Of a stretch of DNA of 64,000 bases, positions 7,049-59,652 are shown one piece after another. The stretch lies in assembly GCF_004364155.1 (NCBI RefSeq), contig NZ_SOAZ01000010.1:1-64000 (forward strand), written 5' to 3'. A program made the position numbers and the translations under genes. Origin of the DNA: Fonticella tunisiensis. GTDB lineage: Bacteria; Bacillota; Clostridia; Clostridiales; Caloramatoraceae. The notes below the pieces were generated by a model. It was not told the DNA's origin. It saw only the letters and a program-made list of their open reading frames with translations, and did not search any database. Every line of letters begins with the position of its first letter. The stretch's first letter is position 1.

Positions 7049-7155
7049 GCTGCTCTTTCCTTCCCATAGAAAAACATATTAGATTTATTGCATTTCGACA
7101 TTTTTAACATTATTTTATCACCGCATTAAATTTTTAACAATACTAATAATTTAAT

Positions 7156-7248
7156 ATATTGTGATACTCTGAAAAGCCCATTGAATAAAGCAAAAAATGT
7201 CTACCGACTGGCGCTGCGATAAAAAATATTTTCATTCAAAGGCTTTGC
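7156..7248 (+). repeat. Interspersed palindromic repeat, isolated L-end
   Basis: This stretch repeats the left end of the full copy at 59343: TACTCTGAAAAG, a YCCATTG-like block, GCAxAAA, then CGCTGCGATAAAAAATAT and TTTCATTCA. Only one end is present, so it is a solo or decayed copy between yitT-like and sdaAB genes. The rest of this 200-base gap shows nothing else. Confidence 0.75.
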
Positions 7249-18736: not shown

Positions 18737-19006
18737 AAATTTAATTTAACTCGTTTTGCTAGATAAATTTACAGATTGACGCTGCGATAAAAAAATATTT
18801 CATTCATCAGTACACTTAGCAAAGAAGTTCTAAGGCTTTTGATTTAAAAAATCAAGAACTTTCGTTAAACTCGCCTTACTTAAGTCACGAAAGTTCTAGG
18901 ATTTTTCTGCATCCCTTCGCCTAGAACTTCTAGCTCTTAGCTTTATTTGAATTTCATATATTCTTTATCGGACCTCGGCCCCTGAACTGGCACAACACGT
19001 TAATTT
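18737..19006 (+). repeat. Interspersed palindromic repeat, full copy B
   Basis: About 270 bases of non-coding nested palindrome nearly collinear with the copy at 59343-59652. Order: TIR-like TTAACTCGTTTTGC, TACAGATTG, CGCTGCGATAAAAAAATATTTC, GAAGTTCTAAGGC, the 12-base hairpin arms AGAACTTTCGTT/ACGAAAGTTCT, CTTCGCCTAGAACTTC, TTTCATATATTCTTTATC, and GAACTGGCACAACACGTTAATTT. It fills most of the 570-base gap between the LCP gene and the small membrane protein gene. A terminator follows directly. Confidence 0.85.
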
Positions 19007-19050
19007 AAAAGCCGTATACACCTTCTGTCTATATGAGTATACGGCTTTTT
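19007..19050. terminator. Strong hairpin terminator beside repeat copy B
   Basis: AAAAGCCGTATAC (19007-19019) pairs with GTATACGGCTTTT (19037-19049), with T runs on both strands. It would end transcription of the minus-strand 19.2-21.2 kb genes, and perhaps isolates the repeat. Confidence 0.8.
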
Positions 19051-22189: not shown

Positions 22190-22470
22190 ATTAATCCGCT
22201 TTTCAGTTCAAGAACTAAAGCAGAGATAAAAAATATATGCAGGTGGCATTTTAGCGAGCAATTAGAAGTTCTTGGCACACAGAATGAAGCAGAGCCTTAG
22301 AATGGTTCGTGGTGTTTGAGCGAGAGGGAGTTCACAAACCTTCTTATGCTGTGCGAATTCGGTGCCTTAGAACTTCTTTGCGAAGCGTAGCAGCGACCGA
22401 AATATATTTTTTATCGCAACGCAATCTGTAAATTTATCTAGCACAACAAGTAAAACTGGTAAAAAGCTTT
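22190..22470 (-). repeat. Interspersed palindromic repeat, full copy C2
   Basis: Inverted relative to copies at 18737 and 59343. On the plus strand it runs AATTAATCCGCTTTTCAGTT, CAAGAACTAAAGC, GAGATAAAAAATATATG, AGAAGTTCTTGGCAC, a central hairpin with loop GTTTGAGCGAGAGGGAGTT, GTGCCTTAGAACTTCTTTGC, and GAAATATATTTTTTATCGCA. Its last 90 bases match the first 90 of copy B very closely. The central stem differs in sequence from the other full copies but still pairs. Together with C1 and the palindrome it accounts for the 826-base gap 21707-22532. Confidence 0.85.
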
Positions 22471-35756: not shown

Positions 35757-35962
35757 AAAAACCCTTCATCCCGTAAAGGGACGAAAGGTTTACTTCCGCG
35801 GTTCCACCCTTATTGGCTTAAAGCCCTCTTTTATTAAAGTGCTCCGAGACGCCCTTCACTGAGATTCAATACCGGATTCCCACCATCACCGGCTCTCTTA
35901 AATTGAACTTGTCAGCTACTCCTTCTCATCACTGCACTCATATTAACTTTTAATGATAATAA
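35757..35962 (-). ncRNA. T-box leader (tRNA-Gly-responsive riboswitch) of glyQS
   Basis: On the minus strand the T-box sequence GGGTGGAACCGCGG lies at 35796-35809, directly before a terminator helix (35757-35791). That helix can compete with an antiterminator containing the T-box. Upstream is a Stem I with the AGTGATGAGAAGGAG start and a GAAGGGCGTCTCGGAGC segment, where GGC is the likely specifier codon for glycine. Unacylated tRNA-Gly would bind and allow read-through into glyQS. The leader fills most of the gap between glyQS and the HesB-like gene. Confidence 0.93.
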
Positions 35963-50909: not shown

Positions 50910-51079
50910 TTGATACCCTCCTGAAAGTAACTTAACAAAAATTTATTTTAGCATAAAATACTATACATTTTGCAATAGTTTATATTATTTTTTATAAATT
51001 TATTTTTTACTTTGAAGTGATGAAATAATCAATAATCAACTCACATGTCATAGGAAATTTGTTTATTTGAGAAGGAGAA

Positions 51080-51165
51080 GATTTACAAAAGTTCTTGTTT
51101 TTCAAATCTCAGGCATTTGAACTTCCTTGGGAGGTTGCAGTGAATATAATGTTTTTAAAGCGGTG
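51080..51165 (-). repeat. Interspersed repeat, decayed core plus L-end
   Basis: On the plus strand: AAAAGTTCTTG, TTTTTCAAATC, a GGCATTTGAACTTCCTTGGG block and GTGAATATAATGTTTTT. These correspond in order to the minus strand of copy A (GAAAGTTCTTGATTTTTCAAATC, GCCTTAGAACTTCATTGC, GGTGAATGAAATATATTTTTT). It lies in the 345-base gap 50910-51255 between the desulfurase and NUDIX genes; nothing else was found there. Confidence 0.6.
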
Positions 51166-59342: not shown

Positions 59343-59652
59343 ATTTTTTACAATTTAATTCGTTGTGCTACTCTGAAAAGTCCATTGGAATGAAAGCAGA
59401 AAGTTTCTACAGGCCGACGCTGCGATAAAAAATATATTTCATTCACCAGTACGCTTAGCAATGAAGTTCTAAGGCTCGGGATTTGAAAAATCAAGAACTT
59501 TCGTTAAACTCGCCTTGCTCAAACAAACGAAAGTTCTAGGATTTTTCTGCATCCCTTCGCCAAGAACTTCCAGTTGCCCGCTTTATGTGAATTTCATATA
59601 TTTTTTATCTCCGCTTTAGTTCTTGAACTGGAACAACGGATTAATTTACTTT
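59343..59652 (+). repeat. Interspersed palindromic repeat, full copy A (reference copy)
   Basis: About 310 bases. L-end: TTAATTCGTTGTGCTACTCT, GAAAAGTCCATTGGAATGAA, CCGACGCTGCGATAAAAAAT. Outer arms: GAAGTTCTAAGGC and GCCAAGAACTTC. Inner arms: AGAACTTTCGTT and AACGAAAGTTCT, a perfect 12-base stem. R-end: TTCATATATTTTTTATCTCC and GGAACAACGGATTAATTT. The ends form imperfect inverted repeats with each other. With the stretch 58964-59266, where nothing else was recognised, it fills the 800-base gap before fetAB. Confidence 0.88.

Follow-up and report, generated by a model that had tools for sequence, protein, structure and literature searches.

The window analysed here is the whole 64,000-nucleotide stretch at the start of contig NZ_SOAZ01000010.1 of Fonticella tunisiensis (assembly GCF_004364155.1, positions 1 to 64,000, forward strand). 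It holds copies A, B and C2 of a dispersed repeat with a long central hairpin, together with several partial copies, one of which adjoins C2 (Table 1). A T-box leader (35774-35941, minus strand; Rfam RF00230, 101 bits) also lies in the window.

Table 1. Copies of the repeat and their parts, in window coordinates.
Feature	Position	Strand	Basis or remark
Copy A, complete MITE, AB-type hairpin	18749..19000	-	terminal repeats ACTCGTTTTGCTAG .. ACGT end
Copy A, left target duplication TAATTTA, 7 bp	18742..18748	.	sequence
Copy A, right target duplication TAATTTA, 7 bp, exact match to left	19001..19007	.	sequence
Copy A, inner hairpin, loop variant GACTTAAG	18823..18932	-	CM hit with R1, 119.5 bits
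Copy B, complete MITE, long right-arm subtype, AB-type hairpin, loop TGTTTGAGC	59358..59641	-	
Copy B, target duplication CAATTTA, 6/7 identical to other side	59351..59357	.	sequence
Copy B, target duplication TAATTTA	59642..59648	.	sequence
Copy B, inner hairpin	59462..59572	-	CM hit with R1, 134.5 bits
Copy C2, MITE, C-type inner stem, hybrid outer arms, without matching target duplication	22194..22451	+	
C2, inner hairpin region	22263..22377	+	
C2, core hairpin, GATAAAAAATATAT .. ATATATTTTTTATC	22225..22415	+	
C2, apical stem-loop (subject of the earlier note)	22299..22344	+	sequence and covariation
C1, partial copy, right arm only, adjoins C2	22073..22142	+	BLAST hit
Partial copy, right arm	7148..7238	-	
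Partial degraded copy, hairpin half	51048..51156	+	15 bits

An earlier, sequence-only reading of the window had described inner stems in copies A, B and C2 whose two arms change together around a constant loop. For copies B and C2 the description holds: the arms of copy B are AGAACTTTCGTT and AACGAAAGTTCT, enclosing the loop TGTTTGAGCAAGGCGAGTTT, and those of C2 are AGAATGGTTCGTG (22299-22311) and CACAAACCTTCT (22333-22344), enclosing GTTTGAGCGAGAGGGAGTT. The pairings then quoted (AGAA/TTCT, GG/CC, TT/AA and GTG/CAC) are all present, but the C2 stem contains, besides its complementary pairs, a bulged T and one C.A mismatch that had been omitted. Copy A was misdescribed, its distal arm ending in CACGAAAGTTCT so that the last stem pair is broken and its loop reading GACTTAAGTAAGGCGAGTTT instead of the claimed GTTTGAGC. 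The possibility that C2 arose as a lone recombination product can be set aside, since its C-type stem is also found in seven other copies of the genome and thus marks a subfamily rather than a single odd recombinant; the outer arms of C2 are nonetheless hybrid. Additional stem types are present elsewhere (L021, L092, L094-L103).

About 70 hairpin-bearing loci (our own count, among the matches listed) were recovered from the 3.1-Mb genome when copies A, B and C2 and a covariance model built from 24 AB-type hairpins served as queries. The terminal repeats of the MITE are ACTYGTTGTGCTAG, and the corresponding pattern has 84 forward and 98 reverse matches, where the backward control has 7 and 5. 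The two 7-base flanks of a copy are more alike (identity 0.857) than flanks with shuffled partners (mean 0.751, maximum 0.788). On contig 36, a 1.15-kb element (G000:C36:1173-2325) that TAATTTA flanks at either end carries an open reading frame of 265 aa that is an IS982 transposase (NF033520, 262.7 bits at a cut-off of 130), and this element is the putative autonomous partner of the MITEs. The ends ACTCGTTGTGCTA..CTAGCACAACGAGT are common to the MITE and the genome's IS982 element, and the target duplication is 7 bp for both, being TAATTTA at the IS982 copy as well as at copy A. Judged by these sequence features, the window repeats are non-coding, non-autonomous MITEs of the IS982 family, and the combination of IS982-type ends, 7-bp duplications and a same-ended autonomous element suggests that the IS982 transposase disperses the copies here in trans. 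Beside the contig-36 element are two open reading frames on the minus strand (L328:2343-3549; 110 and 301 aa), which resemble a split IS110-type transposase.

Deletion forms of about 145 bp (L105-L108, L329-L334) have a single common junction, TTCACATTTTTCAAATCCC, at which the apical hairpin is removed. Several of these hairpin-less copies are flanked by exact duplications that differ from one another (TAAATTA, TAATTTA, TAAGTTA); IS982 mobility therefore does not need the hairpin.

The hairpin itself covaries beyond what phylogeny explains. The null placed the substitutions of every branch randomly on the fitted tree, preserving the tree as well as the substitution count, and was exceeded with z = 15.1 in this genome, z = 25.7 in this genome together with six related genomes, and z = 18.9 in genome G007 alone, the last from a structure-blind MAFFT alignment for which a single copy supplied the structure. 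A covariation test on collected copies was what the sequence-only reading had proposed, and its expectation was borne out. A MAFFT alignment of all stem types misplaced the inner stem, and a diverse alignment and covariance models were used instead; both-sided changes occur in 40 of the 49 pairs of the diverse alignment, to which the structure was itself fitted.

The mismatches are also asymmetric between strands. On the TGTTTGAG strand, G.T mismatches outnumber A.C mismatches by 121 to 73 across phyla (p = 7e-4) and by 192 to 122 within the family (p = 9e-5), and this excess suggests that it is the TGTTTGAG strand which folds, although strand-biased (transcription-linked) C-to-T mutation could contribute to the excess. 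Of 99 hairpins, 63 have a bulge of at least three bases, 6 to 14 bp below the loop, on the 5' side, and 8 have one on the 3' side. That folding of a single strand is selected and that the copies are not simply decaying, as had been suggested for those in the window, is supported by the tree-aware covariation and the G.T excess, and further by the one-sided bulge and by a loop that stays constant on unrelated stems across phyla. Arm complementarity might conceivably come about without selection, if template-switching during replication or repair within the hairpin copied one arm onto the other. Such copying would yield perfectly paired arms of arbitrary sequence, and very long, nearly perfect stems are indeed seen in some other genomes. 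However, it should erase the one-sided bulge that is kept, it is a strand-symmetric process from which no preference for G.T over A.C is expected, and it leaves the constant loop unexplained; we consider it very unlikely.

The substitutions of the window genome were divided into private and shared ones. Private changes number 34 at paired and 13 at unpaired positions (74 and 37 columns, respectively), with no depletion in stems, whereas shared changes (11 paired, 14 unpaired) are depleted in stems relative to the private ones (Fisher p = 0.023). Since private changes are as frequent in stems as at unpaired positions, the resident copies of this genome are not visibly maintained, and the contrast suggests that filtering takes place when copies are amplified and not at every resident one.

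The hairpin belongs to a structure-conserved family that is wider than the IS982 MITE. At the apex stands the motif TGTTTGAG-(mini-stem, usually GCGNAGC)-CGAGTTT; an A-rich bulge lies on the 5' side about 10 bp below it, and the stem varies freely with compensation. The usual apical core is a known stable DNA mini-hairpin, d(GCGNAGC) (PMC10527192, PMC4686876), which is a structural motif of 7 nt and not a repeat family; the core of the present element, moreover, varies with compensation in G007 (GCC..GGC, GGAT..ATCC), where every hairpin copy has its own paired stem. In six further genomes of the taxonomic family to which this genome belongs, the stems of the model hits share no sequence relationship but are paired all the same, under a nearly constant apical motif.

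A search model built from 24 diverse hairpins matches 80 of the 225 genomes of the order, many of them with as many hits as the per-genome scoring limit allowed, so that these counts are minima. In an even sample of phyla, 13 of 299 genomes are positive, with multiple copies where the hairpin is present, so the family is both patchy and multi-copy. Exact matches to TGTTTGAGCGNAGCGAGTTT occur in at least 116 stretches, from Bacillota, Bacteroidota, Pseudomonadota, Desulfobacterota, Nitrospirota, Patescibacteria and a Gastranaerophilales genome, and a match in Ilyobacter adds Fusobacteriota, which brings the loop to at least eight phyla by our assignment from record titles. The arms are complementary at eight or more of nine positions at 87 of the 119 cross-phylum loci, compared with 1% when arms are swapped between loci, and these 119 loci have 98 distinct arm sequences. 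A loop variant searched for in E. coli genomes was absent there; viral contigs hold six.

A close counterpart of the window repeats, as far as their ends are concerned, is MITECca01 of Cardinium (PMC9769881), which is likewise small, non-coding and multi-copy and shares its inverted repeats with an IS982 element in its own genome (ISCca4), the parental transposase being intact. MITECca01, however, is described as derived from the parental ISCca4, whereas the interior of the present element is a covarying hairpin found also in other phyla without IS982. The view that the hairpin is nothing but the palindrome of an ordinary IS982 MITE, with the stem types as separate subfamilies, the loop as a leftover and no selection on folding, fits the IS982 ends and duplications, the spread of hairpin-less derivatives and the existence of IS982-derived MITEs such as MITECca01 (PMC9769881). 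Yet the hairpin is kept in relatives that have no IS982, covariation stands at z of 15-29 and the same loop recurs in other phyla, so that this view has only a very slight probability in our judgment.

The hairpins lie between genes in the named records and around the G007 copies, G.U is tolerated over A.C on one strand, and every G007 copy keeps a separate paired stem. These observations agree with a transcribed RNA element, such as one that stabilises or terminates neighbouring transcripts or marks where they are processed. Under this explanation selection would act on the RNA and spread would be incidental. It sits poorly with the patchy, multi-copy occurrence (13 of 299 genomes), with near-identical recent copies in G182 and several equal-scoring hits in other genomes, with stem changes that are not depleted after insertion in the window genome, and with the identity of the usual core to a stable mini-hairpin of DNA (PMC10527192, PMC4686876). 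We regard it as unlikely, while RNA and DNA as the form of the hairpin cannot be separated from sequence.

A factor recognising the hairpin was sought among neighbouring genes and candidate transposases. Around the cross-phylum loci the only recurrent reading frames were spurious ones of the hairpin itself, and no neighbouring gene is shared. IS982 exceeds the cut-off in 22 of the 225 genomes of the order, and only six of these are among the 80 hairpin-positive genomes; no hairpin was found near the IS982 loci examined, and IS982 was rejected as a general partner because few hairpin genomes carry it.

The sequence-only reading had raised hairpin-recognising transposition and named a Y1/REP-type or other transposase as a candidate. 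An enzyme of this type would be an HUH protein like TnpA-REP (RAYT) that recognises the hairpin as single-stranded DNA. Y1 genes, commonly of 300-320 aa, do exist in 16 of 17 genomes of the family, and the window genome has four of 300-311 aa (G000:C31:9632, C23:9176, C9:100224 and C41:10127), with no hairpin of this family near those examined; for Y1 subclasses 2.1 and 2.3 no REP partner is known (PMC6006769), which makes an unmatched hairpin attractive. However, Y1 genes occur whether or not hairpins are present, and G007, with at least 16 hairpins, has Y1 matches that are interrupted by stops or partial, none clearly intact. None of 11 loci with Y1 matches that were examined has an R2 hit nearby. 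What the window copies show instead is terminal inverted repeats with target duplications of 7 bp, their partner is an IS982 (DDE) element, and their hairpins lack a GTAG-type foot. A Y1 partner was rejected on co-occurrence and adjacency, and transposition of this type is highly doubtful.

REP and REPIN sequences with TnpA-REP resemble the present hairpins in being intergenic, high-copy, folded, bulged in some cases, patchy and without a gene of their own. REP hairpins, however, are about 20-65 nt long, stand on a GTAG/GTGG foot and have a Y1 gene close by (PMC6006769), whereas those described here measure about 110-250 nt and have the loop as their constant part; a GT[AG]G foot is absent from the window hairpins, whose foot is GCGGAGATAAAAAATATAT (window only), and 7-bp duplications are present where REP-type elements have no target duplication. 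The stem-loop families of Cozzuto et al. 2008 (PMC2267715) are similarly dispersed, intergenic and united by a common secondary structure, but were defined per species in 40 genomes by sequence clustering, while the present family extends across phyla by loop and fold, with stems that share no sequence. The hairpin family matched no RNA family or paper that we searched: no Rfam family scored above its gathering threshold, with only generic miRNA hairpins below the cut-off, and the loop sequence led to no relevant paper in a literature coverage that leaves out most subscription journals.

Taken together, the window repeats are probably non-autonomous IS982 elements, each full copy of which carries a hairpin of the wider structure-conserved family. 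IS982 transposase supplied in trans would spread the copies of the window genome, with the hairpin as a passenger inside the MITE. A putative trans-acting factor would bind the TGTTTGAG strand in its folded form, whether RNA or single-stranded DNA, at the loop and bulge and would select for pairing, and the hairpin may thereby persist and spread in lineages that have no IS982. Counted against this reading are the lack of a shared neighbour gene, the absence of hairpins near the Y1 and IS982 genes examined, the private stem changes of the window genome and the spread of hairpin-less forms. More tentatively, and with somewhat less than even confidence, we propose a pan-bacterial class of long hairpins, with a constant apical loop, a one-sided bulge and coevolving stems, that may be recognised as a folded single strand by a putative trans-acting enzyme, spread independently of adjacent genes and be captured by common insertion sequences, IS982 among them. 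If the hairpin layer is as described, many bacteria in several phyla share a structure-conserved repeat with a fixed loop and bulge and a changing stem, of a kind that standard sequence-similarity searches would overlook, and this genome offers an example of an IS982 MITE both carrying and losing it. The sharp question raised is what binds TGTTTGAG-GCGNAGC-CGAGTTT, for which the covarying stems provide a natural data set.

Some further observations concern the surroundings of the hairpin in other genomes. An additional inverted hairpin is present on a plasmid of Parabacteroides distasonis (L325) and missing from two related plasmids of that strain (L385, L386); a clean empty site was sought in the Parabacteroides plasmids, whose flanks are too diverged to define ends. 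The hairpins of G195 form a tandem array with a 271-bp period (L176, 37209-38130), and those of G297 are flanked by a repeat close to ACCAACCAAAGAGTCCGTCCCCGTGGTTGG (L371, L372, L373, L375). A second stem-loop often lies downstream of the hairpin (L200, L207, L226, L272), reading TTTCTTTGCTTACTTTCTTTTGGCGAAGCAAAAGAAAG in Burkholderiales and TTTTTTGGTTACTTTTGGATCAAGCCAAAAGTAAC in Bacteroidota, and its mirror symmetry resembles that of intrastrand triplex motifs (PMC4666352).
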